A stretch of 64,000 bases of DNA from Ancylobacter polymorphus. Lineage in GTDB: Bacteria > Pseudomonadota > Alphaproteobacteria > Rhizobiales > Xanthobacteraceae. The notes under the pieces are model-generated. The model did no database searches and had not been told where the DNA came from. It saw only the letters and a list, made by a program, of their open reading frames with translations. The position numbers and the translations under genes are program-made. This document shows, piece by piece, positions 28,581 through 46,797 of this stretch (its first letter is position 1; the number at the start of each line of letters is the position of its first letter). The DNA is taken from assembly GCF_022836935.1 (NCBI RefSeq), contig NZ_CP083239.1, positions 1,750,001 through 1,814,000 on the forward strand, given 5' to 3'.

Positions 28581-29282
28581 CTAGCGCTTGGCGTTATCCT
28601 CGGTTTCCTGATCGGCGAGTTGCGTCAGAACCGGGCCGACGCCGGCGAGGAAGGTGTCGACCGCATTGCGGATCATGGTCGGCCGGTCGACAGGCATCGG
28701 GAACTGGTACACGATCTCGCGGACGCCGTAATAGAAGATGCCGCCCTGGAGGGTCCAGGCCAATTCGACCTCTTCCGGCCTCGGCGGTTCGGACCCGCTG
28801 AGCCCGAAACTCTGCCGGGTCGCCAAGGCGATGGGCCGGAGGATTTCGCTCTCCACCTTCGCCGCATAGCGCCGGTTGATGTCGACGCCGCGCAGCCCCG
28901 CGAAGATGTAGATGCGGATCCATTCCGGCGTGAAGATGGTGCGCGTGTAGTCCTCATAGAAGCGGACGATGCGCTCGCGGATCGGACGGCTCTCGTCCAT
29001 CAGCCCCTCGCGCCATTCGCTCTTCCAGCGATTGACGTAGATCTCCTGGTAGACGGCGGCGATCAGGTCGTCCTTGCTGGGGAAATAGCGGTAGAGCAGC
29101 GGCTGGGTCACGCCGAGGCGCTGGGCGAGTTCGCGGGTGCCGGCTTCGAACCCGACCTCCGCGAACAGCTCGATGGCCTTGCGGACGAATTCGCGATGCC
29201 GGTCCTCGGGCTTGTTGCGGGTGCGCCGGGCCGCGCGAACCGGGCCGGCGGCCTCAGCGGAGGGAGATGACGAGCCGTCCAT
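28581..29282 (-). CDS. TetR family regulator, candidate master of the catabolic regulon
   Basis: A 233-residue TetR protein. The HTH spans about residues 32-75 (AIELFAEVGFEAGTRELAQRLGVTQPLLYRYFPSKDDLIAAVY), followed by a helical ligand domain. It is the third gene of the VOC/monooxygenase operon, 35 bases after the monooxygenase. That operon has a TTATC-N4-GATAAATAA site at its head, and the same site stands before three further promoters, so autoregulation and control of the wider block are the simplest reading (inference). The ATG at 29282 matches the family's usual N-terminus. Confidence 0.9.
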   Translation of the reverse strand: MDGSSSPSAEAAGPVRAARRTRNKPEDRHREFVRKAIELFAEVGFEAGTRELAQRLGVTQPLLYRYFPSKDDLIAAVYQEIYVNRWKSEWREGLMDESRPIRERIVRFYEDYTRTIFTPEWIRIYIFAGLRGVDINRRYAAKVESEILRPIALATRQSFGLSGSEPPRPEEVELAWTLQGGIFYYGVREIVYQFPMPVDRPTMIRNAVDTFLAGVGPVLTQLADQETEDNAKR

Positions 29283-29317: not shown

Positions 29318-30532
29318 TCACACGGCCGGGTTGTCGGCTTCCATACCGAGCGCAAGGCGGCCGAAAGCGGCGTTTGCGACATCGGTGCTGAAGGCGATAT
29401 GGGCGCTTATAGCATGGGCGTCGCGAAAGCGGCGCTGCGCGCTGCCCGAGAGATAGAGCGCCTGCGCGCCGCCTGCGCCATTGATTTCGTCCACCGCCTG
29501 CGTCGTCAAGCCGGTGGCGAAGGCCAGATCCCGGCGATAGGCGAATTTCGTCACCGGGTCGGGGACATGCCCGCGCGCGGCATCGCGCATCGCCTCCTGA
29601 CAGATCGCCAGCATCATGCGCCGGGCGTGGGACAGCCGGGTCGCGGCGCTGCCAATGTGAATCTGCACGCTCTGCAGTTCGGCCAGCCGCGCGCCGCTGT
29701 AGCGCGCCGCCCGCATGCGGGTGGACGCGACGTGATCGGTGAGCGCGCCTTCGCCATTGCCGAGCCCGACACCCGAGAGGATGGCCGGGAACAGGGCGAA
29801 CACCGGCAGGCGGTAGAGCGGCGCGGGATGCCGCTCGGCGCCCGGCGTGCCCCCGCCTTTCAGATGCGCGACGGAGACGGTCATCTCCTCCGGCACGAAA
29901 ACCTCTTCGCACACCACGTCGTTGGAGCCGGTGCCCTTGAGCCCCGTGACCTGCCACGTATCGAGAATCCGATAGTCCGTGCGGGGGAGCAGGAACACGC
30001 GGTGGTCCGGCGCCGCGCCGTCCTCGCGCACGATGCCGGCGAGCATGTTCCAGCCGCAGACATCGACGCCCGAGGAGAAGGGCCAGCGCCCGGAAAGCAC
30101 ATAGCCGCCCGGCGCCTTGGCGACCCTGGCGGCGGGAAAGACGAAGGAGGAGGCGATCAGCGCGTCGCGGTCCTCGTTCCAGACGCGGTCCTGCGCGGCC
30201 GGCGGGAACATGGCCAGCATCCAGTGATGGCTGGCGAGGTTGGTGAGGTTCCACGCCGTCGAAGCGCAGCCGGCGGCGAGCGCGGCGCCGATGGTGATCA
30301 GGCTTTCATAACCGAGTTCGGCGCCGCCGACCGCCTGCGGCTGCAGCATCCGGTAGAGGCCGCTCTCATGCAGATCGCGCTCGCTCTCCGGTGGCAGGCG
30401 CCGCAAATCCTCGGTGCGCGGGGCGCGTTCGGCAAACACCGAGGCGAGCTCGACGGCGCGCCCGAGCAGTTCATCGTGGCGTCGCTCCACCGGCGAGCGG
30501 GCGAGGGCGGGCGCCGAGATCGTGTCGCGCAT
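29318..30532 (-). CDS. Acyl-CoA dehydrogenase-like flavin monooxygenase
   Basis: A 404-residue protein of the acyl-CoA dehydrogenase fold, group D flavin monooxygenase type (HsaA/DszC/HpaB-like). LHESGLYRMLQPQAVGGAELGYE and AAGCASTAWNLTNLASHHWMLAMFP are the typical N-domain, GRWPFSSGVDVCGW the beta-domain and a helical C-domain follows. The fatty-acid catalytic Glu context is not visible, which fits oxygenation rather than dehydrogenation. These enzymes need FADH2/FMNH2 from a separate reductase; none is adjacent. The ATG at 30532 has AGGGAGG before it; a GTG at 30547 overlapping the VOC stop is the alternative. Confidence 0.88.
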   Translation of the reverse strand: MRDTISAPALARSPVERRHDELLGRAVELASVFAERAPRTEDLRRLPPESERDLHESGLYRMLQPQAVGGAELGYESLITIGAALAAGCASTAWNLTNLASHHWMLAMFPPAAQDRVWNEDRDALIASSFVFPAARVAKAPGGYVLSGRWPFSSGVDVCGWNMLAGIVREDGAAPDHRVFLLPRTDYRILDTWQVTGLKGTGSNDVVCEEVFVPEEMTVSVAHLKGGGTPGAERHPAPLYRLPVFALFPAILSGVGLGNGEGALTDHVASTRMRAARYSGARLAELQSVQIHIGSAATRLSHARRMMLAICQEAMRDAARGHVPDPVTKFAYRRDLAFATGLTTQAVDEINGAGGAQALYLSGSAQRRFRDAHAISAHIAFSTDVANAAFGRLALGMEADNPAV

Positions 30533-30543
30533 CACCGCCTCCC

Positions 30544-31023
30544 TCACACGCGCCGGCGGCGGTCGAGGTAAAGGGTCGCCTCAAGATTTTCGCCGACCTG
30601 TTCAAAGCGGTCGGCGAGGCGCTTGAGCTCGGGAATCCGCGAGGTGTCGAGGCTGGAAACATCCGGCCAGTCGACCTCGACGAGATTGCCGCCGGGGTCG
30701 CGCAGATAAAGCTGCACCGTGCCGTCGGGCATCTCGTTCACGCCATTGCCGAAGGTCGTGTGGTCGATGAGGCCCGAGTCGCGCGCCCGTTCATACACGC
30801 CCATGAAGTCGTCCACGTTGAGAGCGAAATGCTGGTAGTGCGGCGTGGTGTCGGGCAGGCCGAAGATGTGCAGCTGCTGGTTTCCGCAGCGCAGATACTG
30901 GGTGCGGAAGCCGAAATTATAGGTCGGGATGATCTCCATCCCGAACAGCTCGACATAGAAGCGGACGGACTCCTCGACATCGCGGGCGCCGATCGAGAGA
31001 TGGTTCAGGCCGGTGGCGGGCAT
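30544..31023 (-). CDS. VOC family protein (glyoxalase/dioxygenase fold)
   Basis: A 159-residue vicinal-oxygen-chelate protein with the metal triad apparently H8 (LNHLSI), H65 (YQHFAL) and E116 (NLVEVDWP). LYLRDPGGNLVEVDW is the classical C-terminal signature. A single-domain VOC of this kind may be an extradiol dioxygenase, lyase or epimerase. It is first in the operon with the monooxygenase and TetR genes. The ATG at 31023 lies 21 bases downstream of operator A. Confidence 0.9.
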   Translation of the reverse strand: MPATGLNHLSIGARDVEESVRFYVELFGMEIIPTYNFGFRTQYLRCGNQQLHIFGLPDTTPHYQHFALNVDDFMGVYERARDSGLIDHTTFGNGVNEMPDGTVQLYLRDPGGNLVEVDWPDVSSLDTSRIPELKRLADRFEQVGENLEATLYLDRRRRV

Positions 31024-31043
31024 GGCGTTCGCTCTGCTTTTAA

Positions 31044-31061
31044 TTATCGAATGATAAATAA
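31044..31061. promoter_or_regulatory. Operator A, TTATC-N4-GATAAATAA
   Basis: TTATCGAATGATAAATAA, with perfect TTATC/GATAA arms, stands 21-38 bases upstream of the VOC start in the divergent VOC/hisD-like promoter region. The position overlaps where polymerase or the transcript start would be, which suits repression. Confidence 0.7.
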
Positions 31062-31087
31062 CATGGGCTGAGGGACCCCGGCAAGGC

Positions 31088-31127
31088 TTGACACTTATCG
31101 GCGATCTAGTTTTCACTCGATAAATAA
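31088..31127. promoter_or_regulatory. Operator D and TTGACA upstream of hisD-like gene
   Basis: TTGACA at 31088-31093 resembles a -35 box for the plus strand. It is followed by TTATCGGCGATC (31096-31107, a partial site) and TTTTCACTCGATAAATAA at 31110-31127, which matches operators A-C except for one base in the left arm. It lies 78-117 bp upstream of the hisD-like ATG. Confidence 0.6.
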
Positions 31128-31204
31128 GAGCAGATAGCGATGGGCCGCGCCGAGCCTCGCCGCTCGCGTGAATGTTTGGCCCCGCGCGGCGCCAGGAGGA
31201 AAAC

Positions 31205-32524
31205 ATGCCCCGCCATTTGAAGACCGCCCGTTCCAGCGCGGAGCGGGCCGACGCCGATGCGCAGGTACGCGCCACGGTCGAGACCATCCTGAAGGAGATC
31301 GAGACCGGCGGCGACGCGGCGGTCCGCGCCTATTCCGAGTGTTTCGACAAATGGTCGCCGGCGAGCTTCAGGCTGTCCGAGCCGGAGATCGAAGCGGCGC
31401 TGTCGAAGGTCTCGAAATCCGATCTCGACGACATCCGCTTCGCCCAGGCACAGGTGCGCAACTTCGCCCAGAAGCAGCGCGCCTGCATCACCGACCTTGA
31501 GGTGGAAACCCTCCCGGGCGTGGTTCTCGGCCACCGCAATGTGCCGGTGGAGCGTGTCGGCTGCTATGTGCCGGGCGGCAAATATCCCATGGTCGCCTCT
31601 GCCCATATGAGCGTGGTCACCGCCAAGGTCGCCGGCGTGAAGAGCGTCGTGGCGGCGGCCCCGCCCTTCCACAACGGACCGCATCCCGCCATCGTCGCGG
31701 CGATGCATCTGGCGGGAGCCGACGAGATTCTCGTGCTCGGCGGCGTTCAGGCCGTGGCCGCGATGGCGCTCGGCACCGAGACGGTCGCCCCGGTCGACAT
31801 GCTGGTGGGGCCGGGCAACGCCTTCGTCGCCGAGGCCAAGCGTCAGCTTTATGGCCGCGTCGGCATCGACCTGTTCGCCGGCCCGACCGAGACGCTGGTG
31901 ATCGCCGACGACACCGTCGATGCCGAGATCTGCGCGACCGATCTTCTGGGGCAGGCCGAACACGGGCCGACCTCACCGGCCGTGCTGCTCACCACGTCCG
32001 AGACGCTGGCGCGCGCGACCCTGGCGGAAATTGAGCGACTGCTCGACATCCTGCCGACCCGCGAGATCGCCTCGGCGTCCTGGCGCGATTTCGGCGAGGT
32101 GATCGTCTGCGACAGCCTCGACGAGATGGTGGCGGAAGCCGACCGCATCGCATCCGAGCATGTGCAGGTTATGACCGCCGACCCCGACTACTTCCTGAAC
32201 AACATGCGCAATTACGGCGCGCTGTTCCTTGGCCCGCGCACCAATGTCGCCTATGGCGACAAGGTGATCGGCACCAACCACACGCTGCCGACCAAGAAGG
32301 CGGCGCGCTACACCGGCGGGCTCTGGGTCGGCAAATTCCTCAAGACCTGCACCTATCAGAAGGTGACCAGCGACGCGGCGAGCGCGGAAATCGGCGCGTA
32401 CTGCTCGCGGCTCTGCGTGCTCGAAGGCTTCCTCGGCCATGCCGAGCAGGCCAATGTCCGGGTGCGCCGCTATGGCGGCGGCAATGTCGACTATGCGGCG
32501 GCGGCGGCCCCCGGGGTCGGGTGA
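31205..32524 (+). CDS. HisD-like dehydrogenase (catabolic paralogue)
   Basis: A 439-residue histidinol-dehydrogenase-family enzyme. All key positions are retained: Q250 and H253 (LGQAEHG), E318-H319 (ASEHVQV), D352 (AYGDK), H359 (TNHTLPT) and H412 (LGHAEQ), corresponding to the Zn and catalytic residues of HisD. The context is not histidine biosynthesis: it pairs with a deacetylase-like gene and an ABC importer under a shared operator. Such paralogues oxidise alcohols, for example HpsN on dihydroxypropanesulfonate. Function here is a Zn/NAD alcohol dehydrogenase on an unknown substrate. GGAGGAAA precedes the ATG. Confidence 0.9.
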
Positions 32525-32576
32525 TGCCGGCCTGCCGCGCCCCTCGGATTCCCTCTGCCATGCCCGGAGCCGCAGC

Positions 32577-33449
32577 ATGAGTCTTCTCAGCGAACGCGCG
32601 CCTTATCTCGCCTTTCCGGACCGGCCGCGCCTGCATCTGCCCGATGATGCCCGCGTCGCGGTGTGGATCATCGTCAATGTCGAGGAATGGTCCATCGCCC
32701 GGGCCATGCCGCGCACCGTGCTGCCGCCGCCCATGGGTCAGCCGCTGATGCCCGATCTGCCCAACTGGGCCTGGCATGAATACGGCATGCGGGTCGGCTT
32801 CTGGCGGCTGCTCAAAGCCATCGAATCCCGCGGGCTGCGCGCCACTTTCGCGGTGAACGGCCATGTCTGCCGTTCCTATGAGCGGGTGGCGCGGGCGGCG
32901 CGCGATGCCGGCTGGGAGTTCATGGGCCACGGCTATGTGCAGCAGCCCATGCATCAGGCGGAGGACCAGCGCAAAGCAATCTTCGACACGGTGGAGGCGA
33001 TCCGCGATTTCACCGGCCGCCCGCCGCCGGGCTGGGAGAGTCCTGGCCTTACCGAAAACGAGGCGACGCTCGACCTGCTGAAGGAGGCGGGCGTCGGCTA
33101 TGTCGCCAATTGGGTGATCGACGACCTGCCGCTGGAACTCGCCACCGCCCATGGGCCGATGCTGTCGGTGCCCTATTCGGTGGAGACCAACGACATCGTC
33201 GTGCATGCCGTGCAGCATCAGCCTTCCGACGCCTTTCTGCGCCGCTGCACGCTGCAGTTCGACCGGTTGTGGGAGGAGGGCGCGGAGAACGCCAAGGTGA
33301 TGGCGATCAGCACCCACCCCTATCTCACCGGCGTGCCGCACCGTATCGGCTATTTCGAACAGCTGCTGGACTATGTGCGGACCCGGCCGCAGGTGGCGAT
33401 GATGACCGGCGAGGCGATCGCCGATTGGTATCGCACGGCGAGCCGTTAA
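32577..33449 (+). CDS. Polysaccharide deacetylase-like hydrolase (PuuE/allantoinase type)
   Basis: A 290-residue NodB-fold protein. WIIVNVEEWS near residue 32 replaces the catalytic TFDDG, RATFAVNGHVCRSYERV follows, then GHGYVQQPMHQ supplies the metal histidines and ISTHPYLTG the C-terminal motif. This pattern is that of the PuuE-like subgroup acting on amides or cyclic ureides rather than chitin. It follows the HisD-like gene by 52 bases and converges with the ABC operon, only 8 bases away. Confidence 0.85.
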   Translation: MSLLSERAPYLAFPDRPRLHLPDDARVAVWIIVNVEEWSIARAMPRTVLPPPMGQPLMPDLPNWAWHEYGMRVGFWRLLKAIESRGLRATFAVNGHVCRSYERVARAARDAGWEFMGHGYVQQPMHQAEDQRKAIFDTVEAIRDFTGRPPPGWESPGLTENEATLDLLKEAGVGYVANWVIDDLPLELATAHGPMLSVPYSVETNDIVVHAVQHQPSDAFLRRCTLQFDRLWEEGAENAKVMAISTHPYLTGVPHRIGYFEQLLDYVRTRPQVAMMTGEAIADWYRTASR

Positions 33450-33457
33450 GGCGTGCT

Positions 33458-34135
33458 CTAGAAGCTCGGCAGCCGGGGCGCTCCGGGCGCGATGGGCAGC
33501 ACATTGTCGCGCCAGAAGCCGTTGCCGCGCTCGCCGAGCAGTTCGGCGAAGAGGTCGGGTCGGCTAAGATCGGCGGCGCTGATCCTGCGCACCACTATCC
33601 CCGCAGCGGCGAGGTGTTCCTGCCGCCGGCGCTCGGCCGACGGAAGCAGGGGCGAGGGGTCGAAAAGCACCGCCAGCGCGGTCTCGCCCAGCCACAGGAA
33701 CATGTCCACCGGGATCTGCACCCCAGCGGCCAGCGGCACCAGGGCGCGCGGCAGCGGCAGGGGGGCGGCGTAGAGCACGTCCTCCGGCGCGAAGAGCCCG
33801 GCCATCCCGCCCAAACGCTCGTCGATCTCCTCGCGATGGCGGGCGATGAGCGAGCGCAGATGCGCGAAATAGACGTCGATGAACAGGCCGGCGCTGCGGT
33901 TCCAGCCACCCGCCAGCCGCTTCAGATGCTCGGCCAGCCGCACATCCGTCGGCGTGGTCTCCTGTCCGATCGCGGGCGGTGGCAGATCGAGCGCCTCGTC
34001 ATTGAGACGCAGCAATTCCCCCGGACGCACGGGCATCCGGAGGAAACCGTCGAGGGAGCCATTGGCCGGTGCCTTCTCGACGCCATAGGCGACGAGCGGC
34101 GGCGCGCCGGCGAGGGTGGGTAGACGGCCCGTCAC
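33458..34135 (-). CDS. Unknown protein coupled to ABC importer
   Basis: A 225-residue soluble protein with no signal or membrane segment that I can place in no family. It has a proline/leucine-rich start (MPVRPGELLRLNDEALDLPPPAIG), a helical middle and a C-terminal part with FLWLGETALAVLFDPSP and RRRQEHLAAAGIVVRRISAADL, faintly like a restriction-endonuclease-type fold but without its acidic residues. The GTG start overlaps the permease stop as GTGA, so it is the fifth gene of the importer operon and likely processes the substrate. Confidence 0.7.
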   Translation of the reverse strand: MTGRLPTLAGAPPLVAYGVEKAPANGSLDGFLRMPVRPGELLRLNDEALDLPPPAIGQETTPTDVRLAEHLKRLAGGWNRSAGLFIDVYFAHLRSLIARHREEIDERLGGMAGLFAPEDVLYAAPLPLPRALVPLAAGVQIPVDMFLWLGETALAVLFDPSPLLPSAERRRQEHLAAAGIVVRRISAADLSRPDLFAELLGERGNGFWRDNVLPIAPGAPRLPSF

Positions 34136-34977
34136 CGCCGGCTCTCGGGATGCCAGACCAGCAGGCGGCGGCGGACGATTTCGAGACTCTTCACCACGAT
34201 GAAACCGAGAAGGATGATCTGGACGATGCCAGCGAACACGCCGACCGAGTCGGCGAAGCGCCCGGCCATGATCATCGAGCCGCCCACCCCGCGTCCACCC
34301 ATCAGCATCTCTGTGACGATGGTAGTGATCATGCCGGTCGGCAAGGCGACCTGGAGGCCGGTGATGATCTGCGGCATGGCCATGGGCAGATACACCTCCC
34401 ACAGCAAGGCGCGCTCCCTGGCGCCCAGCGACCGGGCCGACCAGATCGGCCATTTGTCGAGGCCGGAGCAGCCGGCATAGGTGGCCGCGACGATCGGGAA
34501 GAAGCAGGAGAACGCCACCATGATGATCTTCGACGTGTCGTAAATGTCGAACCACAGGATGAAGATCGGCAGAAAGGCGATCTTCGGCATCGGGAAGCCG
34601 ACGGACACCAGCGGGTCGAGGAACCAGCGCATCACCGCCGAGCGCGCCATGAGAATGCCGGCGGGAATGCCGATCGCCGCGCCGATGACGAAGCCGAGCA
34701 GGGCCCGATAGAGCGTGAGGCCGAGATCGACCAGCACGGTGCCCGCGAGCACATCCTCCCAGATCCGCCCCAGCACCACGCTAAGTGGCGGCAGCAGGAA
34801 AGGATTGAGCGCGCCGAAGCGTGCGCCGAACTCCCAGATGCCGGCAAGCAGGGCGACCACCGCGATCTGAACGAGGGTGTCGACCGTCTTCGCTGAGACC
34901 GCGCGTGCCGGACGCGGCGCCGTCACCTTCCCGGCGGGCCTGTCGGGAGCGATGTCGCGGGCCTGAGCCATGGTCAT
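34132..34977 (-). CDS. ABC transporter permease (NitT/TauT type)
   Basis: A 281-residue inner-membrane permease with about six helices. The EAA loop is LGARERALLWEVYLPMAMPQIITGLQVALP (residues 173-202), the ATPase docking motif. It is one of two different permeases here, suggesting a heterodimer. The ATG at 34977 shares its A with the TGA of the preceding permease (TGATG). Confidence 0.92.
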   Translation of the reverse strand: MTMAQARDIAPDRPAGKVTAPRPARAVSAKTVDTLVQIAVVALLAGIWEFGARFGALNPFLLPPLSVVLGRIWEDVLAGTVLVDLGLTLYRALLGFVIGAAIGIPAGILMARSAVMRWFLDPLVSVGFPMPKIAFLPIFILWFDIYDTSKIIMVAFSCFFPIVAATYAGCSGLDKWPIWSARSLGARERALLWEVYLPMAMPQIITGLQVALPTGMITTIVTEMLMGGRGVGGSMIMAGRFADSVGVFAGIVQIILLGFIVVKSLEIVRRRLLVWHPESRR

Positions 34978-35774
34978 CACGCCTCCCTCCAGCGCAGCGA
35001 ACGCCGGGCGAACATCGCGTACAGGCGATCCGCCGCGAAACCGATGCCGGCGACGAAAAAGATGGCGGCGAACATGGCCGGATACTGACCGCCATCGCCG
35101 AGCGAGGAAATCATGAAGCCGACGCCGTCGGTGGCGATGACGAATTCCGAGCTCACCATCAGGATGAAGGAGAAGGCGAGCGCGGTGCGGCAGCCGTTGA
35201 GAATGTCCGGCATCGCCCCGCGCAGCACCACTTCACGCAGCACGTCGAAGCGCGAGGCACCGAGGCTTGCCGCCGACCACAGCAGGAACGGGTTGACGCC
35301 TCGCGCGCCATTATACGTGCCGACCACGACCGGGAGCAGGCAGCCGAGAAAGATCAGCAGGATCTTGGAGGAATCCCCGAGGCCCAGCCAGATCATGACC
35401 ACGGGGATCAGAGCGGATTTCGGCATGGGATAGAAGATCTGCACGATCGGATTGACCAGCAGCCGGGCGGGGCGGAACTGCGCCATCATCAGCCCGACGA
35501 TCACGCCCACAATCACCGCACCGCCCAGTCCTGCCGCCGCGCGGCTGATCGAGCGGGCGGTGTTGTAGGGCAGGTCGCCATTGACCAGCATCTCGACGAA
35601 GGCGGAAAACACCTCGCCGAGCCCCGGCAGCATCTGCTGCGAGACGATGCCACTGAGGCCCAGGAACTCCCAGAAGAACGCCAGCAGAAGAAGCGGCGAG
35701 AAGCGGAACGCCGTGTCGATGAGGGTGTAGCCAAAGTCGGCGGAGCGCCGCCGGCCGGCGGAGATGTCGCTCAT
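34977..35774 (-). CDS. ABC transporter permease (NitT/TauT type)
   Basis: A 265-residue permease. The docking loop is LGASRFDVLREVVLRGAMPDILNGCRTAL in the second half. It pairs with the permease at 34132-34977. The ATG at 35774 overlaps the ATPase stop as TGATG; a TTG one codon earlier is in frame but less likely. Confidence 0.92.
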   Translation of the reverse strand: MSDISAGRRRSADFGYTLIDTAFRFSPLLLLAFFWEFLGLSGIVSQQMLPGLGEVFSAFVEMLVNGDLPYNTARSISRAAAGLGGAVIVGVIVGLMMAQFRPARLLVNPIVQIFYPMPKSALIPVVMIWLGLGDSSKILLIFLGCLLPVVVGTYNGARGVNPFLLWSAASLGASRFDVLREVVLRGAMPDILNGCRTALAFSFILMVSSEFVIATDGVGFMISSLGDGGQYPAMFAAIFFVAGIGFAADRLYAMFARRSLRWREA

Positions 35775-36604
35775 CAATGCACCCCCCGCGTCGCCGCCAC
35801 TGCCTGCTCGCGCACGAGACGCCAGATGTGCTCGCTGAGCCCGATGAAGTCGCGATTTTCGAGGATTTCCTCGCCGCGCTCCTTGGGCAGGTTGACATCG
35901 ATGACGTGCTGGATGCGGCCCGGCCGCGCGCTCATGATCGAGATGCGGTCGGCGAGGAACACCGCTTCCTGCACGTCATGGGTCACGAACACCACGGTCT
36001 TGCGGCTCTCGCGCCAGATCGCGCGCAGCTCTTCCTGCATCACGCGCCTTGTCTGGGCGTCGAGCGCGCCGAACGGTTCGTCCATCAGCAGGATACCCGG
36101 ATCGACCGCGAGCGTGCGGGCGATGGCGGCGCGCTGCTGCATGCCGCCGGACAGCTGCGAGGGGTAGGCGTTCTCGAAGCCGCTGAGATGCACCATGTCG
36201 ATATAGTGCTGGGCGCGTGGCCCGCGCTCGGCGCTGGGATAGCCGGCTTTCTTCAGACCGTAGAGTACATTGTCCTTCACCGTCTTCCACGGGAACAGCG
36301 CGAAGTTCTGGAACACGATGCTGCGGTCCGGCCCCGGCGCCGTCACCGGGCCGGCGGCGGTGGAGATGGTCCCGGATTGCACCGGGATGAAGCCACCGAC
36401 CAGATAGAGCAGCGTGCTCTTGCCGCAGCCCGAGGGGCCGAGCAGGCAATGGAACTCGCCATCGCCGATTTCGAGATTGATGCCGTCCAGAGCCAACACC
36501 CCGCCGCCCTGCCCGCCATAGCTGTGCGACACATCGCGGATCGAGATGCCGCTGGCGAGATGGGCGCCCTGTCGCGGGGCGGCCGATGCGTCGGTCCTGC
36601 TCAT
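35774..36604 (-). CDS. ABC transporter ATPase (NitT/TauT type)
   Basis: A 276-residue nucleotide-binding subunit of the SsuB/TauB/NrtD group: Walker A GPSGCGKST near residue 57, Q-loop FQNFALFPW, signature LSGGMQQRAAIARTL, Walker B ILLMDEPFGALD and H-loop VTHDVQEA. It powers the two-permease importer. The start overlaps the binding-protein stop as ATGA. Confidence 0.95.
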   Translation of the reverse strand: MSRTDASAAPRQGAHLASGISIRDVSHSYGGQGGGVLALDGINLEIGDGEFHCLLGPSGCGKSTLLYLVGGFIPVQSGTISTAAGPVTAPGPDRSIVFQNFALFPWKTVKDNVLYGLKKAGYPSAERGPRAQHYIDMVHLSGFENAYPSQLSGGMQQRAAIARTLAVDPGILLMDEPFGALDAQTRRVMQEELRAIWRESRKTVVFVTHDVQEAVFLADRISIMSARPGRIQHVIDVNLPKERGEEILENRDFIGLSEHIWRLVREQAVAATRGVH

Positions 36605-37629
36605 TGGCTCGCCTCGATCCGCTTCTGTGCCTCCTTGACGAAGCTGAGGTCGACATAATCGGGTTCGACCTTGATGCCGCGCTGGGCGAGGCCGAGATCG
36701 ACCGCAATATCGATGCTTTCCTGAATCGCCTTCACATTCGGCACCATGAAGGGATCGCGGAAATAGTCTTCGTTGGTGAACAGGTAGCTCAGCGACTCCG
36801 GCGGCTGCTGCATGAAGTTGGCGATGATCTTCACCGCCTCGTCATGGTTCTTCGGGTCGGTGAACCAGCGCACGGCGCGCACATGGTCCTCGAAGAAGTC
36901 CATCATCGCCGGGCGGTTATCCGCGAGGAATTTGCCATTGGCGACGAGAAAGACGAGCTGCGACGGCCCCATCGCATCCTTGGAGGTGAACAGCACCTTG
37001 TAATTGCCGGTGGCCAGCAGCTGCTTCGACATCGGCTGCAGCACGGTGCCGAGGTCGATCTTCTTCTCGTCGAGCATCGCCGGGATGTTGGGGAAGGCGA
37101 CCTCGACCATCGTGTAGTCGCGCTTGTCCTGCATGTTGTTCTTGCGGAACATGGCGCGGATGCCGGTGTCGGACGCCGAGCCGATGGCGTTGGTGCCGAC
37201 CCGCTTGCCCTTCATGTCGGCGATGCTGTTGATGCCGGAATCGGCGCGGACCATGAAGGTCTCGCTGTGGCTGTCGCCGACGCCGTCCTGGATGATGTCG
37301 GCCACCACCTTCACGTCGAGCCGGGCATTGGTCGCGGCGAGCGCGAGCACCAGCGGGCCGAAGGCGGCCATGTCGATCTCGTTCGCCGCCATGGCGGTGA
37401 TCTGCGGCGAGGACCCGCGGAACCGAATGGGCTCCACCGTGTAGCTTTTGCCGTAATATTTGAGGATGTCCGGCTTGCTGTAGAGCACCGGAATGAGATG
37501 GCCCGGCATGGTGGACCAGCCGATGCGGATCTTGACCGGGTCCGCCTTTGCCGGGGTCAGCCCGCCGGGGGCGAGGATGAGGGCCGCCATCGCGGCCGCG
37601 AGCGCCAGGGCGCCGCGTCGTGTTGCCAT
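36601..37629 (-). CDS. ABC transporter substrate-binding protein (NMT1/SsuA-like)
   Basis: A 342-residue periplasmic receptor. The signal peptide runs to about residue 29 (TPAKAD). The mature start VKIRIGWSTMPGHLIPVLYSKPDILKYYGK and FRGSSPQITAMAANEIDMAAFGPLVLALA are standard for the nitrate/taurine/sulfonate group, members of which also bind pyrimidines and phthalates. A GGGAGAAAA site fits the ATG. Operator B lies 154-171 bases upstream, tying import to the regulon. Confidence 0.92.
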   Translation of the reverse strand: MATRRGALALAAAMAALILAPGGLTPAKADPVKIRIGWSTMPGHLIPVLYSKPDILKYYGKSYTVEPIRFRGSSPQITAMAANEIDMAAFGPLVLALAATNARLDVKVVADIIQDGVGDSHSETFMVRADSGINSIADMKGKRVGTNAIGSASDTGIRAMFRKNNMQDKRDYTMVEVAFPNIPAMLDEKKIDLGTVLQPMSKQLLATGNYKVLFTSKDAMGPSQLVFLVANGKFLADNRPAMMDFFEDHVRAVRWFTDPKNHDEAVKIIANFMQQPPESLSYLFTNEDYFRDPFMVPNVKAIQESIDIAVDLGLAQRGIKVEPDYVDLSFVKEAQKRIEASQ

Positions 37630-37782
37630 GATCGTTTTCTCCCGATGCGCCCGGGCTTTGGCCGGATCACGTGTTTCTGAGCAGAGAAGATCGGGGCGTC
37701 CCACGGACTCCGCGCGGGAGAGGCGAGCGTCCCGGTCGGCTTGGCGTCACCCGCCGCTGGTTCTTTGCGCGGCAGTTCCTGC

Positions 37783-37800
37783 TTATTTATCGATTGATAA
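37783..37800. promoter_or_regulatory. Operator B, TTATC-N4-GATAAATAA (reverse)
   Basis: On the minus strand this reads TTATCAATCGATAAATAA, with perfect TTATC/GATAA arms. It lies between the SDR stop and the ABC operon start, 154 bases before the binding-protein ATG. Confidence 0.7.
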
Positions 37801-37882
37801 TCGCTCTGATTTTCGATCATGTCAACGATGCATGACGATCCCGCGCTCGTTCGCGAGCCGTATGGCCTGATCGCGACGCCGG

Positions 37883-38674
37883 CTAACGTCCTCCGCCGAC
37901 GGGAATAATCGCGCCCGTGACATAGGCGCTGGCCGGCGAGGCCAGCCACATCACGACATCGGCAACTTCCCCTGCCGTGCCGGGACGCTGCATCGGAATC
38001 AGCGGCCCGAGCCGCTCCAGCCGCTCGGGCGCGCCGGCGGCGGCGTGCAGATTGGTGGCGATGAGCCCTGGCGCGACGGCGTTGACGCGAATGCCTTCCG
38101 CCGCCACCTCGCGTGCAAGGCCGATGGTGAGGCTGTCCACCGCACCCTTGCTGGCGGCATAATGCACCCACTCGCCGGCACCGCCGAGTTCAGCGGCGCG
38201 CGAGGACATGTTGATGATGACACCGCCGCGCCCGCCATGGCGCGTCGACATGCGCTTCACCGCCTCCCGGCAGCACAGGAAGCTGCCGACGACGTTCACC
38301 GCCATGATGTCGGTCAGCGCGCGGGCGGTGATCGCCTCGACCCGGCCGAGCGGGCCGACACCGCCGGCATTGTTGACCAGCACGTCGGGCGGGCCGAACC
38401 GGGCCTCCACCGTGCGGAACAGCGCGAGGACATCGGCCTCTTCGGCGATATCCGCCTTGACGATGAACGCGTCGCCGCCGGCCGTCGTGACGGCCTCGGC
38501 AACCGCTTCGGCGCCGGCCGCGTCCTCCTTGTAGGTGAGGGCGACCCGGTAACCGGCGGCACCAGCGGCATGGGCGATGGCCGCACCGATGCCCTTGGAG
38601 CCTCCCGTGACGATGAGGGTTCGCGGCGCGGCGGATGACGGCATGGCTGATACAGGCATGGCGGATGCAGGCAT
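37883..38674 (-). CDS. SDR family oxidoreductase (FabG-like)
   Basis: A 263-residue short-chain dehydrogenase: TGGSKGIG (residues 23-30), NNAGG near residue 101, catalytic S (NMSSR), Y-x3-K (YAASK) and PG (VAPGLIATN). The N-terminus carries three 5-residue repeats, MPASA-MPVSA-MPSSA, from a 15-bp tandem repeat with three in-frame ATG codons, so the true start is ambiguous within 30 bases; GAGGAGGAGC favours the first. It is last in the operon cyclase, BKACE, Gfo/Idh/MocA, SDR. Confidence 0.92.
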   Translation of the reverse strand: MPASAMPVSAMPSSAAPRTLIVTGGSKGIGAAIAHAAGAAGYRVALTYKEDAAGAEAVAEAVTTAGGDAFIVKADIAEEADVLALFRTVEARFGPPDVLVNNAGGVGPLGRVEAITARALTDIMAVNVVGSFLCCREAVKRMSTRHGGRGGVIINMSSRAAELGGAGEWVHYAASKGAVDSLTIGLAREVAAEGIRVNAVAPGLIATNLHAAAGAPERLERLGPLIPMQRPGTAGEVADVVMWLASPASAYVTGAIIPVGGGR

Positions 38675-38685
38675 GGCGCTCCTCC

Positions 38686-39687
38686 TCAGGCGACGGCGAC
38701 GAAGCGGTCCGTGCCGACGGCGGCAATGATGGCTTCCAGCACCGCGACGCCGTGGATCATCTCGGCGGATGTCAGGGGATAAGGCGTGCCGCCTTGGGCG
38801 GCCCGCGCAAAGGCGTCGAGCTCCGCCCGCAACGTATCGAAGCCGGCGATCGTGTCCTGCGTCGCTGGCGCCGCCGGCGCGCCGGATGCGGCCGGTACCG
38901 GCTGCAGGCTGAAATCGTCCAGCGTCGCCCCGGTAATGGTCGCGGTCGCGGCCGAGCCAGCGACCATGAAGCGATAGGTCGGCGCCGCGGTGGTGAAGGC
39001 GAGCAGCGAGCCGGTCTGTCCGCTCCGGAAGCGCAGCAGCACCGAGGTGGTATCGTCCGTGCCCGAGGGCGCGGCGCGGTGAACGCTCTGGCAGGCCACG
39101 GCCTCCACCGCGCCGAACAGGTCGATCATGCCATCCACGAGGTGGATGCCGAGCCCGGTCATCCCGCCGGCCGGCGACTGATCGGGATCGGTGCGCCACC
39201 CGCCGGGCGGCAGGAACAGCCCGGTCGGCGAGGCCATTTCGCCATGGCAATGCAGCACCGTGCCGAGTTCGCCCGCCCGCACGAGAGCACGCAGCCGGTT
39301 CATGTGGGGATGGAAGCGCCGGTTATGGCCGAGCGCCAGCGTCACCCCGGCGCGCTCCGCTGCGGCCACGGCGTGCTGGGCGCTCGCCTTCGTCAGGGTG
39401 AAGGGCTTTTCGACGAAGATGTGCTTGCCCGCTTCCGCCGCCCGCGCGACCTGCTCGGCGTGCTGGAGATGCGGCGTCGCCAGCACCACCGCCTCGACCG
39501 ACGGGTCGGCGAGCACGGCCTCAAGGCTGTCCTTGAGTTCGAGGCCGGCGGAGGACGCGAAGCCCTCCGCCTTGGCGCGGGTCCCGGTCGCGGCGCAGGT
39601 GAAGCGGATGAGGTCGCTTTTCCCCTGCACCGAACGGACGAGAGACTGGCCCCAGCGGCCGAGCCCGATGATTGCGGTGCGCAGCAT
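38686..39687 (-). CDS. Gfo/Idh/MocA family oxidoreductase
   Basis: A 333-residue NAD(P)-dependent dehydrogenase: AIIGLGRWGQSLV (residues 5-17), FVEKPFTL near residue 92, MTGLGIHLVDGMIDLFG near 180. It is closest in the window to the copy at 15264-16298. It sits 3 bases after the BKACE gene and 11 before the SDR gene, in the operon headed by the cyclase and operator C. Confidence 0.92.
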   Translation of the reverse strand: MLRTAIIGLGRWGQSLVRSVQGKSDLIRFTCAATGTRAKAEGFASSAGLELKDSLEAVLADPSVEAVVLATPHLQHAEQVARAAEAGKHIFVEKPFTLTKASAQHAVAAAERAGVTLALGHNRRFHPHMNRLRALVRAGELGTVLHCHGEMASPTGLFLPPGGWRTDPDQSPAGGMTGLGIHLVDGMIDLFGAVEAVACQSVHRAAPSGTDDTTSVLLRFRSGQTGSLLAFTTAAPTYRFMVAGSAATATITGATLDDFSLQPVPAASGAPAAPATQDTIAGFDTLRAELDAFARAAQGGTPYPLTSAEMIHGVAVLEAIIAAVGTDRFVAVA

Positions 39688-39690
39688 CGC

Positions 39691-40623
39691 CTAGAAATCC
39701 ACCTGGTCCGCGCCCTTGAGCGCGAGCATGTCGCGGGCCTCCTCGGGCGTGGCGAGTTCAAGACCCATGCCTTCGAGGATCTGCCGTGCCTTGCGCACCT
39801 GCGCAGCGCTGGACGGCGCGAGTTCGCCCGGCCCGAGCCACAGCGAATCCTCCAGCCCGACGCGGACATTGGCCCCCATCGAGGCGGCCATGGCGGCGAC
39901 CCGAAGCTGCGAGGCCCCGGCGCCGAGCACCGACCAGCGATACTGGTCGCCGAACAGCCGGTCGGCCGTGCGCTTCATGTGGATGATGTCTTCGGGATGT
40001 GTGCCGATGCCGCCGAGAATGCCGAACACCGACTGCACGAAGAGCGGCGGCTTGACCAGGCCGCGATCGAGGAAATGCTTGAGATTGTAGAGATGGGCGA
40101 TGTCGTAGCACTCGAACTCGAAGCGCGTGCCATTGCCGTAGCAGGTCTGGAGTATGTACTCGATGTCCTTGAAGGAGTTCCGGAAAACCAGATCCCGCGT
40201 TGCTTCCAGGTGCTGGCGCTCCCACGCGAACTTGAAGTCCTTGTAGCGGTCGAGCAGGTGATACAGGCCGAAATTGATCGATCCCATATTGAGTGAGGCG
40301 ACTTCCGGCTTGAACCGCGCCGCGGGCAGCACACGCTCTTCCACCTTCATATAGGGGCTGCCGCCCGTGGTGATGTTGATGGCGGCCGAGGTTCGCTGCT
40401 TCAGCTGCGGCAGGAAGCGCCCGAACGCCTCGGGTGTCTGGTCCGGCTTGCCCGTCTCCGGGTCGCGGGCGTGAAGATGCAGGATCGCGGCACCGGCTTC
40501 GGCGGCGCCGATGGCGTCGGCGATGATCTCGTCCGGCGTGATCGGCAGATGCGGCGACATGGAAGGCGTGTGGATCGCGCCGGTGCAGGCGCAGGTGACG
40601 ATGACCTTGCGGGCGGCAGCCAT
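39691..40623 (-). CDS. Beta-keto acid cleavage enzyme (BKACE, DUF849)
   Basis: A 310-residue TIM-barrel Zn enzyme that condenses a beta-keto acid with acetyl-CoA, releasing acetoacetate and a new acyl-CoA. Zn ligands appear as H49 and H51 (LHLHARDP) and E258 (VGLEDSLW); TCACTGAIHTPSMSPHLP at the N-terminus and GGIGTHPEDIIHMKRTADRLFG are family hallmarks. Its presence implies the pathway generates a beta-keto acid. It follows the cyclase by 78 bases. Confidence 0.95.
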   Translation of the reverse strand: MAAARKVIVTCACTGAIHTPSMSPHLPITPDEIIADAIGAAEAGAAILHLHARDPETGKPDQTPEAFGRFLPQLKQRTSAAINITTGGSPYMKVEERVLPAARFKPEVASLNMGSINFGLYHLLDRYKDFKFAWERQHLEATRDLVFRNSFKDIEYILQTCYGNGTRFEFECYDIAHLYNLKHFLDRGLVKPPLFVQSVFGILGGIGTHPEDIIHMKRTADRLFGDQYRWSVLGAGASQLRVAAMAASMGANVRVGLEDSLWLGPGELAPSSAAQVRKARQILEGMGLELATPEEARDMLALKGADQVDF

Positions 40624-40701
40624 GATCGGCTCCAGTGAGGCGAGAGGCGAGGGGACGGCGCGGGTCTGCGCCGCCCTGCGATATCGGCCGAGGCGGCGGC
40701 G

Positions 40702-41655
40702 CTACTTGATCGCCTGCGGATTGATCGGCGAGCCGGTGCCGCCGGTGATGATCAGCGGTGGGCCGCAGAAGAAGAACTCATAGACGCCGTCCCTGGCGCA
40801 GTCCTCGGCGAGTTCCTTGACGTAAAAAATCTCGCCCATGCACAGGCCCATGGCGGGGATCACCACCCAGTGCCAAGGCTGGTTGGCCTCCGTGGTTTCG
40901 TTCGGCCGCACCTCGACACCCCAGGTGTCGGAGCAGATCGCCGCGATTTCCTTCTCGTGGCACCAGTAGCAGTTCTCGAACTTCACGCCCGGCGCGTCGC
41001 CACCGGCATAGCCGCCCCATTCGCCCTCGGCGAGGCAGCGTTCCATCTGGCCTGTGCGCAGGATCACGAAATCGGCCCGGCGGATGTCGACCCCCTGCTT
41101 TTTGGCGCAGGCGTCGAGTTCGTCATTGGAGATGGATTCGCCGTCCTGCAGCCAGTCGACACCGCGGAAGCGGGCGATGTCGAGCAGCACGCCGCGCCCG
41201 GTCATCTTCGACTTGGAGTGCTCGATGCCGAGAACGTTGAGCCCGCGCGCATTGATGTGGCGGGGATCGTGACCGTTATAGGCCTTGTCCTCATAGAAGA
41301 TATGGCCGAGCGCATCCCAATGGGTCGCGCCCTGCACGCACAGATTCAGCGTGTCGTCGGCATAGCGGATCTTGTTCCAGTCCTGCTGGCCGGCGATGGC
41401 ATCGGTGCCGGTGGCGAGCATCTGGTGGATCGGATTGAAGCGTCCGCCGAACAGGCCGTTCTGCGGCCCCTCGCGATCGAGCGGGATGCCGAGCGAGAAC
41501 ACACGGCCGGTCTTGATGAGCCCGGCGGCGTCGATGATGTCCTGCGGCGTGATGTGATTGAGGGTGCCGCTGTGATCGTCCTTGCCCCAGCGCCCCCAGT
41601 TGGAGAGCGTGCGGGAGGCTTCTTCGATGGCGGCAAGGCCGACATTGATGTCCAT
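40702..41655 (-). CDS. Cyclase family protein (kynurenine-formamidase-like hydrolase)
   Basis: A 317-residue metal-dependent amidase/lactamase of the cyclase (PF04199) type. The metal motif HxxTHxDxxxH appears as QGATHWDALGH (residues 108-118). Relatives hydrolyse N-formylkynurenine or isatin. It is first in the operon, 135 bases downstream of operator C, with GTGAGGAAA before the ATG. Ring or amide opening early in the pathway is a reasonable inference. Confidence 0.88.
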   Translation of the reverse strand: MDINVGLAAIEEASRTLSNWGRWGKDDHSGTLNHITPQDIIDAAGLIKTGRVFSLGIPLDREGPQNGLFGGRFNPIHQMLATGTDAIAGQQDWNKIRYADDTLNLCVQGATHWDALGHIFYEDKAYNGHDPRHINARGLNVLGIEHSKSKMTGRGVLLDIARFRGVDWLQDGESISNDELDACAKKQGVDIRRADFVILRTGQMERCLAEGEWGGYAGGDAPGVKFENCYWCHEKEIAAICSDTWGVEVRPNETTEANQPWHWVVIPAMGLCMGEIFYVKELAEDCARDGVYEFFFCGPPLIITGGTGSPINPQAIK

Positions 41656-41989
41656 GGGTTTCCTCACTTTTTCTGGTTCTTGATCTCCGGCCCGGAGAAG
41701 TGGCGTTGGCCGGTGGCGGGTCAGGCACGCGGAGGGCTTTTCTCGGCAGGGCCAGTCACGTCCGGGCTTTTCAAACCTGTACGGTTTGTTTATCGTTCGA
41801 TAAATATCAGGGTGGCGTGACGGTTTTGTCAATCGCCCACCGTGGATCGGAGCCACCATCGCGGGCGATCAGCATTGATGATCGACCGGATCAGAACTCA
41901 TGGTTTCGAGCCCGGCGGGGAGGTCGCTAGCGTTCACCCGGACCGGAGGCGGCCAACGCCCCGGCAAGACAAAGGGAGAGGAGCCGCCC
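41656..41989. other. Divergent promoter region cyclase/hydrolase
   Basis: This gene-free 334 bp separates the minus-strand cyclase operon from the plus-strand alpha/beta hydrolase operon. Apart from operator C it shows no clear structure; the AT-rich patch around 41780-41830 is the likely promoter for one or both sides. Confidence 0.5.
41790..41807. promoter_or_regulatory. Operator C, TTATC-N4-GATAAATA
   Basis: TTATCGTTCGATAAATAT, with a perfect TTATCG-TT-CGATAA dyad, in the region between the divergent cyclase and alpha/beta hydrolase operons (135 and 183 bases from the respective starts). It can serve both. Confidence 0.7.
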
Positions 41990-42802
41990 ATGACGACCGA
42001 CTTCGTCACCTCAGGCGATGCCGAGATCGCCGTTCGCATCGATGGGGCGGCGCATCTGCCCTGGATCGTGCTGTCGAACTCGCTCGCCGCCGATCTCAGC
42101 ATGTGGGACGACCAGATCCCGTTCCTCACCCGCAGCTACCGCGTGTTGCGCTACGACACCCGTGGCCATGGTAAGAGTTCGGCGCCGGCCGGGCCCTACA
42201 GCTTCGATAGTCTCGTCGGCGATCTCGTCGCGGTCATGGACCATTTCGGCATCGAACGGGCGGATATTCTCGGTCTGTCGATGGGCGGCATGACGGCGCT
42301 GGGGCTTGGCCTGCGCTCCCCCGGGCGCGTCGGCCGGCTGATCTGCGCCGATGCCCGCGCCGATGCGCCGCCGGCCTTTGTGGCCGGGTGGGATCAGCGG
42401 ATCGCGGCGGTGGAAGCCGGCGGCATGGCGGCGATCCTTTCGGGCACCCTGGAGCGCTGGTTCACCGCCGCGACGCGCGAGACGCGGCCGGAGGTCGTCG
42501 ATCGCGCGGCACGCATGGTGCTGTCGACCGCGCCGGTTGGCTATATCGGCTGCGCCAATGCGTTGAAGGGGCTCGATTACCTGCGCCATCTCTCGCGCAT
42601 GGAGCCGCCGACGCTCTACCTCGTCGGTGCCGAGGATGGCGCCGCGCCGGCCGATGCGATGCGTCAGATGGCGGCGGAAACGCCGCGCGGGCGGTTCGAG
42701 ATGCTGCCGGCCGTCGCGCATATCGCCAACATGGAAGACGTGGCCGGCTTCAACAGGGCGGTCGGCGATTTTCTCGACATTTCCCGACAAGCGGCGGAGT
42801 GA
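41990..42802 (+). CDS. Alpha/beta hydrolase (enol-lactonase-like)
   Basis: A 270-residue alpha/beta hydrolase similar in layout to 3-oxoadipate enol-lactonase (PcaD). Oxyanion region VLSNSLAADLSMWDDQIPFL near residue 24, nucleophile elbow GLSMGGM (Ser near 96), acid Asp in LVGAEDGAAP, catalytic His in AVAHIANME. It likely opens a lactone or ester. GGGAGAGGAG precedes the ATG. First of four co-directional genes. Confidence 0.92.
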   Translation: MTTDFVTSGDAEIAVRIDGAAHLPWIVLSNSLAADLSMWDDQIPFLTRSYRVLRYDTRGHGKSSAPAGPYSFDSLVGDLVAVMDHFGIERADILGLSMGGMTALGLGLRSPGRVGRLICADARADAPPAFVAGWDQRIAAVEAGGMAAILSGTLERWFTAATRETRPEVVDRAARMVLSTAPVGYIGCANALKGLDYLRHLSRMEPPTLYLVGAEDGAAPADAMRQMAAETPRGRFEMLPAVAHIANMEDVAGFNRAVGDFLDISRQAAE

Positions 42803-42807: not shown

Positions 42808-43707
42808 GTGACGAGCGAGACCAAAGCGACCGTTGGCATCATCGGTCTCGGCATTATGGGTTCGGCCTATGCCGCTAATCTGCTGGCGGACGGCTTTCGG
42901 GTGATCGGCACCGATGTTGCCGACGACGCGAGGACGGCGCTGGCAGGGCAGGGCGGCCATCCGGTCGGCTCGGCCGGGGAGGTGGCGGCGGGTGCCGATA
43001 TTCTCCTGCTCGCCCTGCCCTCGGTGAAGGCACTTGAGACGGTGACGGCCGAGATCGCCGACACGATCCGACCCGGAGCGGTGGCCTGCGAGATGGGCAC
43101 CCTGCCGATCGAGGCGAAGGAGGCGTGCCGCGTCGCGCTGGCGGCGAAGGGTGCCGATGTGCTCGATTGCCCGGTGAGCGGCACCGGCGCGCAGGCGGCC
43201 CGACGCGACCTCTCCATCTATGCCAGCGGCGACGAGGCCGCCTTCCGGAAGGTTGAAGCGTCCTTCGCCGCCTTCGCCCGAGACGTGCGCTATTGCGGCA
43301 GTTTCGGCACTGGAATGAAGCTGAAATACATCGCGAACCTGCTGGTCACGATCCACAATCTTTCGACCGCCGAAGCGCTGCTGCTCGCCGAGCGCGCGGG
43401 GCTCGATCTCAACCTTGTCTATGACGCCATTCGTCCGGGGGCCGGCGGTTCGCGCATGTTCGACGTGCGCGCGCCGATGATGATCGAGAACCGCTACGAA
43501 CCGGCGACGATGAAGATGGATATCTACATCAAGGATTTGCAGCTCATCATGGACTTCGCCCGCGACATGCGCACGCCCACCCCGCTGATGGCGGCGAGCC
43601 TGCCGTTCTATTACGCGGCGCTGGCGGAGGGCCGTGGCAAGCAGGACACCGCCTCGCTGTTCGCCGTGCTGAAGGGCATGACCGCGCCGCACGACAAGGG
43701 AGAGTAA
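42808..43707 (+). CDS. HIBADH-type NAD(P)-dependent dehydrogenase
   Basis: A 299-residue beta-hydroxyacid dehydrogenase of the 3-hydroxyisobutyrate/tartronate semialdehyde reductase family. VGIIGLGIMGSAYAANLL (residues 9-26) is the NAD site, DCPVSGTGAQA the substrate Ser loop and GTGMKLKYIANLL carries the catalytic Lys. Translation starts at a GTG behind GGAGTGAG, 5 bases after the hydrolase stop. Confidence 0.92.
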   Translation: MTSETKATVGIIGLGIMGSAYAANLLADGFRVIGTDVADDARTALAGQGGHPVGSAGEVAAGADILLLALPSVKALETVTAEIADTIRPGAVACEMGTLPIEAKEACRVALAAKGADVLDCPVSGTGAQAARRDLSIYASGDEAAFRKVEASFAAFARDVRYCGSFGTGMKLKYIANLLVTIHNLSTAEALLLAERAGLDLNLVYDAIRPGAGGSRMFDVRAPMMIENRYEPATMKMDIYIKDLQLIMDFARDMRTPTPLMAASLPFYYAALAEGRGKQDTASLFAVLKGMTAPHDKGE

Positions 43708-43708
43708 C

Positions 43709-44149
43709 ATGGCCGGTCTCACCCTGGCTCAGGCCGATGTGATCGGCCGTGTCGCGCTGGAGGACGGTCGGCGGCGCGACGCCAAGCCCCTGACCGTGGT
43801 GGTTCTCGATGCCGGTGGCCATGTGACGCTGGTGCGCCGCGAGGATGGCAGCGGGATCGCGCGATTCGACATCGCCTTCGGCAAGGCCTGGGGCGCGCTG
43901 GGCATGGGCATTTCCTCGCGGGGCCTGTCGGTGCGGGCGGCGAAGACTCCCGGCTTCTTCACCGCGCTCGCCGCGGCGACCGAGGGGCGGATGGTGCCGG
44001 TGCCCGGCGGCGTGCTGGTGCGCGCCGGCGCGGACGGGCCGATCATCGGCGCCGTCGGCATCAGCGGCGATACCTCCGATGTCGACGAATTCTGCGCGGT
44101 CGCCGGCATCGAGGCGGCCGGTCTCGTGGCGGATATCGAGGAGCGCTGA
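43709..44149 (+). CDS. GlcG/HbpS family protein (DUF336)
   Basis: A 146-residue heme-degrading/HbpS-like domain protein: TVVVLDAGGHVTLVRREDG (residues 29-47), FGKAWGALGM and IIGAVGISGDTSDVDEF near the end. GlcG relatives accompany many catabolic operons without known catalytic role. It starts one base after the preceding stop. Confidence 0.9.
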   Translation: MAGLTLAQADVIGRVALEDGRRRDAKPLTVVVLDAGGHVTLVRREDGSGIARFDIAFGKAWGALGMGISSRGLSVRAAKTPGFFTALAAATEGRMVPVPGGVLVRAGADGPIIGAVGISGDTSDVDEFCAVAGIEAAGLVADIEER

Positions 44150-44152
44150 GCG

Positions 44153-46787: not shown

Positions 46788-46797
46788 GCCGCTCCTC

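Follow-up and report, generated by a model that had tools for sequence, protein, structure and literature searches.

What holds together the scattered catabolic operons around a repeated AT-rich motif in Ancylobacter polymorphus, and which regulator acts on that motif? We addressed these questions in a 64,000-nucleotide stretch of contig NZ_CP083239.1 (positions 1,750,001 to 1,814,000; hereafter the window, its first letter being position 1). The initial annotation had described an 18-bp motif at four intergenic sites and had proposed that it marks one regulon under the TetR-family regulator encoded at 28581-29282 (minus strand), with the GntR gene as the alternative. As detailed below, a paralogous cluster in the same genome, the conservation of the sites in related loci, the scarcity of GntR in these loci and a link between recognition helix and operator all speak for that proposal. 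We conclude that this TetR, a presumed repressor, is very probably the regulator that acts on the motif as the operator of one regulon.

The window was searched for the motif at up to three mismatches, with 100 shuffled sequences as background. The four sites were found where they had been placed, as eight matches over both strands, against a mean of 0.26 and a maximum of 3 in the shuffles; the claim that four matches in one block are unlikely by chance thus stands. The form of the motif had to be revised. A 22-bp palindrome, TTATTTATC-RNNY-GATAAATAA, describes the four copies better than an 18-bp directional motif. Operator 1 (31040-31061; TTAATTATCGAATGATAAATAA) lies in the promoter region of the genes for a VOC protein, an acyl-CoA dehydrogenase-fold protein (ACDH) and TetR, and its matrix score of 37.0 is the best in the window. 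Operator 2 (31106-31127; CTAGTTTTCACTCGATAAATAA; score 28.9), in the promoter region of a HisD-like gene, had been taken as a full match at 31110; its left half is in fact imperfect, the half-site reading TTTTC. Operator 3 (37783-37804; score 28.6) is found in the promoter region of an ABC importer and operator 4 (41786-41807; score 34.1) between the divergent cyclase and alpha/beta hydrolase operons. These gene assignments, also made in the initial annotation, agree with the open frames. When the window was scored with the 22-bp consensus, the four sites reached 16 to 19 out of 20 and the next best place 13. The 10-base core at two mismatches gave six matches in the window, which is within chance (shuffle mean 3.73; 21 shuffles reach 6). 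Because this looser core gives such an ordinary count, its flanks matter.

The 5.2-Mb genome was examined by pattern search. Exact TTATC-N4-GATAA occurs five times genome-wide (reversed control, 0), and the exact 16-bp core WTTATCRNNYGATAAW four times, three of them in the window and one at C2:225336, on a second contig. At one mismatch, TTATC-N4-GATAA gave 17 matches as compared to 11 for the control, and WTTATCRNNYGATAAW at two mismatches 28 as compared to 13. Weak matches beyond the clusters are therefore mostly background. An exact site at C3:41044 (L005) is devoid of AT-rich flanks and scores 9.9 by matrix. A site at C1:1491698 (L009/L017), upstream of what by eye is a terminal-oxidase-like gene, reaches 12.5. 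Matches at C1:270819 (L006) and C1:3943700 (L015) gave no more than 3.4 and 9.5; the first of these falls, as read by eye, within a BKACE-like coding region. A genome-wide scan had been suggested as a check when the motif was first described; run here, it found that the full motif is not widespread at unrelated promoters. Two further observations concern the motif. An operator-like site with a high score (25.5) was seen in a very AT-rich stretch at about C1:1927373-1927377 (L011:1497), near an IstB-like gene (named by eye). In another genome (G021), 25 exact TTATC-N4-GATAA matches were counted; the places listed all read TTATCAGGAGATAA or its complement, and they probably belong to a repeated element.

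The protein encoded at 28581-29282 contains a TetR_N domain (PF00440, 55.7 bits; cut-off 24). None of the 15 listed NCBIfam models of named TetR equivalogs (RutR, KstR, AcuR, BetI and others) reached its cut-off, the best score being 39.5 bits against 265. RutR, KstR and AcuR are TetR-family repressors of local catabolic genes, and the present system shares with such local repressors the TetR_N domain, a palindromic operator at the target promoters and linked catabolic genes. Six literal operator strings occurred in none of the papers searched.

Contig C2, which is 288 kb long, also carries a paralogous TetR-cyclase-HisD-SDR cluster (C2:216000-235000, L016, 2802-11827), together with CoxMSL-like genes and operators of its own. 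The C2:225336 site lies between the paralogous cyclase gene and a TetR gene whose product is 47% identical to the window TetR. A second site precedes the paralogous HisD-like gene. A third, with a weaker core, is found before the CoxM-like gene of a molybdenum hydroxylase (Cox genes named from sequence). CoxMSL-like genes are not among the genes of the window block. The regulon is duplicated in this genome. Since the C2 TetR has the recognition helix QPLLYRYF and the operators in common with the window TetR, cross-talk between the two regulons is possible.

Conservation of the operator was studied with two TetR proteins as queries and one genome per species, and the best 80 loci of at least 417 confirmed relatives were retained. 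Recruitment relied partly on QPLLYRYF, one of two patterns used, and counts given over 81 loci add C2. Most of the 80 loci are alphaproteobacterial; L029, L075 and L089 stand under other names. All 5-base inverted repeats with spacers of 0-12 were enumerated. TTATC-N4-GATAA was present in 48 of the 80 loci, equal to the best GC-rich repeat. Among repeats with no more than a single G or C per half, the two that come next (28 loci each) extend the same palindrome, and the best unrelated one occurs in 24. With 0 or 1 mismatch allowed, the motif lies at most 350 bp upstream of a catalogued gene in 79 of the 80 loci, with at least two such sites in 68 and at least three in 24. Over the 81 loci, 191 of 220 motif sites are placed in this way, as compared to 1/6, 4/17, 5/15 and 2/10 for four permuted controls. 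Positions beyond the search core are also conserved across loci, giving the extended palindrome. The site precedes the cyclase gene in 34 of the 35 loci having one, VOC in 20/20, DctP in 13/13 and CoxM in 44/51. In 58 of the 80 loci the TetR gene is preceded on its own strand, at a distance of up to 700 bp, by a gene for ACDH, flavin reductase or VOC; in 11 an operator is found at most 350 bp upstream of TetR itself.

Among 149 family genomes, the exact motif was present in 14 of the 16 that encode a TetR at least 48% identical, a cut chosen after the table had been seen, versus 50 of the 133 others (Fisher p = 0.00015). Within the genus, two of seven genomes have the TetR (E <= 1e-40) and contain 5 and 4 exact motifs (controls, 0 and 1); the five genomes without it contain 0, 0, 1, 0 and 0 (controls, 0, 1, 0, 1 and 2). 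The predicted regulon is spread over many alphaproteobacteria.

The 80 loci are uninformative on the recognition helix, because QPLLYRYF was used in their recruitment and all 80 have it. We therefore considered all 73 TetR places in the family genomes, 35-100% identical to the query, and defined a site as a score of at least 22 within 5 kb. A site was found at 31 of the 34 places with QPLLYRYF as compared to 4 of the 39 with other helices (Fisher p 6e-13, a value that ignores kinship). This full set replaces an earlier hand-picked one of 23 TetR genes (19/19 versus 0/4) and is less clean. For TetRs with HSAIYRHF, HSVIYRHF, HSAIYRYI or HATIYRHF (36-43% identical), no site was found within 5 kb, and a TetR of only 38% identity that has QPLLYRYF (L133) is accompanied by a site of score 29.5. 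The loci used to train the matrix overlap the genomes of some of the 73 places; six loci outside the training list (L128-L133) score 26.8-31.0. At four of these, L128, L129, L130 and L132, the TetR is 45-48% identical, the genome has no exact core and two near-consensus sites are spaced by about 50 bp, which may reflect a variant arrangement of the operator.

A further locus is found on plasmid pRL8 of Rhizobium johnstonii 3841 (leguminosarum 3841 in PMC3333776), which was scanned with a matrix trained without this locus. Three sites score at least 28 and the next 16. The first lies between moaA and tetR, which are 0.86 kb apart, at some 0.7 kb from moaA; the second separates tetR and the cyclase gene, and the third is 0.14 kb before xdhC. 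A plasmid of Rhizobium sp. CIAT894 has three sites, one past the stop codon of tetR, one in the interval from tetR to the cyclase gene, and one before xdhC. With old and new gene names paired by us by order and product, the pRL8 block of PMC3333776 shares with our system the same type of TetR with cyclase, SDR, XdhC/CoxI and CoxMSL genes and operators; it differs from the window block by its CoxMSL genes, since CoxMSL-like genes of A. polymorphus were seen on C2.

How the TetR would act may be read in part from promoter geometry. At three of the five window promoters, a -35-like box places a -10-like box at the operator. A TTGACA box at 31088-31093 (plus strand), before the HisD-like gene, implies a -10 box starting at 31111 or 31112 (three mismatches), within operator 2. 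For the importer, TTGACA at 37820-37825 (minus strand) implies a -10 box at 37802-37797 (two mismatches) in operator 3, and for the cyclase operon, TTGACA at 41827-41832 (minus strand) implies one at 41808-41803 (two mismatches) that overlaps operator 4. A -10-like element at operators 2, 3 and 4 would suit a repressor that blocks RNA polymerase, and the regulon is probably repressed through operators near the -10 region. A TetR dimer, or a pair of dimers, would bind the 22-bp palindrome and keep RNA polymerase from five units, namely VOC-ACDH-tetR, HisD-like, importer, cyclase and hydrolase. A substrate or intermediate of the pathway would then occupy the ligand domain of TetR, the repressor would leave, and the genes for uptake and breakdown would switch on together. 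A gap of 35 bp separates tetR from the ACDH gene upstream, which has the same orientation. As tetR lies co-directionally behind VOC, ACDH and one of its own operators, it would itself be autoregulated, probably negatively through operator 1.

Several points weigh against this interpretation. The 80 loci are not independent, many being close relatives (Bradyrhizobium, Ancylobacter), and the scoring matrix was trained on these same loci plus C2. One locus of the 80, L089, has no site at 0 or 1 mismatch upstream of a catalogued gene. The site precedes HisD in just 12/25 loci, LucMO in 23/42 and ACDH in 32/58, and it precedes PDA in 1/51, LivBP in 0/20 and TetR itself in 12/81; some of these families are internal operon genes. 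In the helix set, one of 73 reversed-sequence controls scores at least 22. Three QPLLYRYF places have no site (L142, L146 and L156, the stretch for L146 being short), and the four other-helix places with a site are L152, L153, L175 and L186 (QALIFRYF). The first three of these have QSLLYRYF or QALLYRYF, one residue off, with sites scoring 23.2-28.3; because they too carry operator-like sites, the helix may tolerate change at the proline. On pRL8, the matrix scan gave no strong site before CoxMSL or hisD, and for this reason these genes may answer to another regulator. As for the promoters, the boxes were identified by match to the consensus, with no background count, the -10 box of the HisD-like gene is poor, and the consensus scan of the window yielded best boxes with 5 and 4 mismatches at the VOC and hydrolase promoters. 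Over all loci the placement of TTGACA is mixed, with high bins at -30 to -26 and at +10 to +14 from the operator centre. The motif itself (TTGATA) accounts, at least in part, for the bin at 0 to +4, and no single geometry holds over the loci.

Other explanations were weighed on the same data. The sites may be real and yet serve several pathways, with a TetR that senses general stress or a class of aromatics and controls mixed functions. Genes under the operator depend on the clade, among them AhpC and OsmC, with a site in 7 of 14 and in 9 of 15 loci, and the type of transporter also differs between clades. Yet cyclase, VOC and CoxM carry operators in nearly all the loci that have them, and TetR, cyclase, HisD and SDR stay together in the C2 copy, which makes this explanation unlikely. 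An improbable alternative is that TetR binds the motif mainly as an activator, or as repressor or activator depending on the site. The varying position of TTGACA across loci and the want of a good promoter box at operator 1 would suit it, but the -10-like box at the operator in three window promoters does not, and most TetR-family regulators are repressors.

A single regulon repressed by TetR also fits better than binding of the motif by the GntR/FCD regulator (27743-28486, minus strand; domain scan), which adjoins TetR and is kept beside it in 7 of the 80 loci (L018-L024), all Ancylobacter-like. With a match defined as 40% identity over half the length within the stretch examined, 73 loci have no GntR match, yet the motif is present in 72 of them. 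The C2 locus likewise has the motif and no GntR match, the seven matches in the 81 loci all being those of L018-L024. None of these seven loci has a site at most 350 bp upstream of GntR. We therefore consider GntR, the alternative first put forward, a very improbable candidate and reject it as main regulator of the operator. A perfect palindrome, TGTTCGAACA, was noted at 27687-27696, in the gap that separates the GntR gene from the start of the adjacent one (26376-27614), and is a candidate site for GntR itself. Finally, the notion of chance AT-rich matches in GC-rich DNA, with which the near-control rate of one-mismatch matches in the genome (17 versus 11) would agree, has next to no credibility in view of the co-conservation, the rarity of exact matches, the shuffle test and the helix link.

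The genes around the operators were then named by family. On the minus strand before tetR lie the VOC/glyoxalase-fold gene (30544-31023, PF00903) and the ACDH gene (29318-30547), whose product resembles the flavin monooxygenase HsaA (298.5 bits, under the cut-off of 450). On the plus strand, the histidinol-dehydrogenase-fold oxidoreductase (31205-32524) is followed by a polysaccharide-deacetylase-fold hydrolase (32577-33449), weakly PuuE-like (117.4 bits, under the cut-off of 424.6). The importer (34132-37629, minus strand) comprises two permeases, an ATPase (all three named from sequence) and an SsuA-like binding protein (36601-37629; SsuA_fam 122.2 bits, under the cut-off of 163.5). The cyclase operon, also on the minus strand, starts with the cyclase-family gene (40702-41655, PF04199) and continues with a BKACE beta-keto acid cleavage enzyme (39691-40623), a Gfo/Idh-type oxidoreductase (38686-39687, named from sequence) and, as last gene, an SDR oxidoreductase (37883-38674, domain scan). 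The BKACE protein passes the curated 3,5-dioxohexanoate-type model NF053538 (542.9 bits; cut-off 430), a family assignment only. The hydrolase operon, on the plus strand, opens with a PcaD-like alpha/beta hydrolase (41990-42802; 244.7 bits, slightly under the cut-off of 255.85), followed at 42808-44872 by a 3-hydroxyisobutyrate-dehydrogenase-like gene and then by what, from their sequence, are HbpS-like and SDR genes. Sequence also points to a second ABC importer at 45936-48752, whose binding protein is of a similar type; the matrix scan of the window listed no operator-like site for it.

Which compound might the pathway use? The families under or beside the operator include HsaA-like flavin monooxygenase, VOC, cyclase, HisD-like dehydrogenase and PuuE-like hydrolase, as well as CoxMSL-type hydroxylase and luciferase-like monooxygenase. 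A flavin reductase is present in 55 of the 81 loci; no member is listed in the 18-52 kb of the window. SsuA-like ABC, TRAP and Liv-type ABC transporters alternate among the loci. These enzyme families would fit an aromatic or heterocyclic acid as substrate; our guess from the enzyme types is that this acid is aromatic or N-heterocyclic and comes from plants or algae.

The HpsN-like, SsuA-like and TRAP genes led us to consider a sulfonate (DHPS) pathway. Among solved structures, the DHPS-3-dehydrogenase HpsN is indeed closest to the HisD-like protein (402 bits). According to PMC11382572, the diagnostic motif of HpsN is GRY-A/S-H, with the sulfonate-binding His126; DHPS dehydrogenases read GRYAH and histidinol dehydrogenases GSAPL. 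The window protein fails this motif, as it reads GKYPM with Met at the His126 position, and the sulfonate pathway was set aside because the diagnostic His is missing. The 25 HisD-like matches in the 81 loci read GGKYPM (12), GGKYPL (5), GGRYPM (4) and GGKFPM (4), that is GG[KR][YF]P[ML], and the GKYPM-type proteins possibly form a third functional class of the histidinol dehydrogenase fold. The presence of both cyclase and BKACE brought up a phloroglucinol-type pathway, which was rejected because BKACE is found in just 4 of the 81 loci. Phloroglucinol degradation in Clostridium scatologenes (PMC10470551) shares with our system cyclase-family and BKACE-family enzymes and a short-chain dehydrogenase (phloroglucinol reductase), but the available text of that paper names no flavin monooxygenase, VOC protein or Mo-hydroxylase. 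Isatin hydrolase was also discarded: the only solved relative of the cyclase at E 0.001 is 5ibz, an uncharacterised protein, and a joint literature search yielded nothing.

The operator joins scattered, loosely named catabolic genes into one predicted regulon in dozens of genomes, and a reporter carrying operator 1 together with TetR makes the substrate testable, for instance with root exudates and heterocyclic acids. Pea-specific genes on pRL8 can also be reinterpreted in the light of this operator. PMC3333776 reports that in the pea rhizosphere the cyclase gene pRL80036 is raised six- to ten-fold and the SDR gene pRL80037 2.5- to 3.5-fold, that CoxMSL and CoxG are pea-specific and that coxG and coxM mutants compete less well there. 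In that paper the cyclase is interpreted as N-formylkynurenine formamidase, and CoxMSL is assigned to a separate clade of CO-dehydrogenase-like enzymes; its text does not use the word TetR, and the portion available does not state induction of moaA or xdhC. More tentatively, and with odds that we put somewhat under even, a single undescribed pathway for a common plant or algal heterocycle might extend over alphaproteobacteria (Ancylobacter, Bradyrhizobium, Afipia, Rhizobium, Roseobacter-type), with the GKYPM-type third class, a ring-opening cyclase and the pea-rhizosphere genes of pRL8 as its parts and TetR as a sensor of a root compound. If so, the pRL8 genes so far read as CO-dehydrogenase-like and as kynurenine formamidase would belong to this pathway. 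A tblastn search with the cyclase in plasmids returned 168 records, and the six at 60-80% identity are all from Rhizobium.

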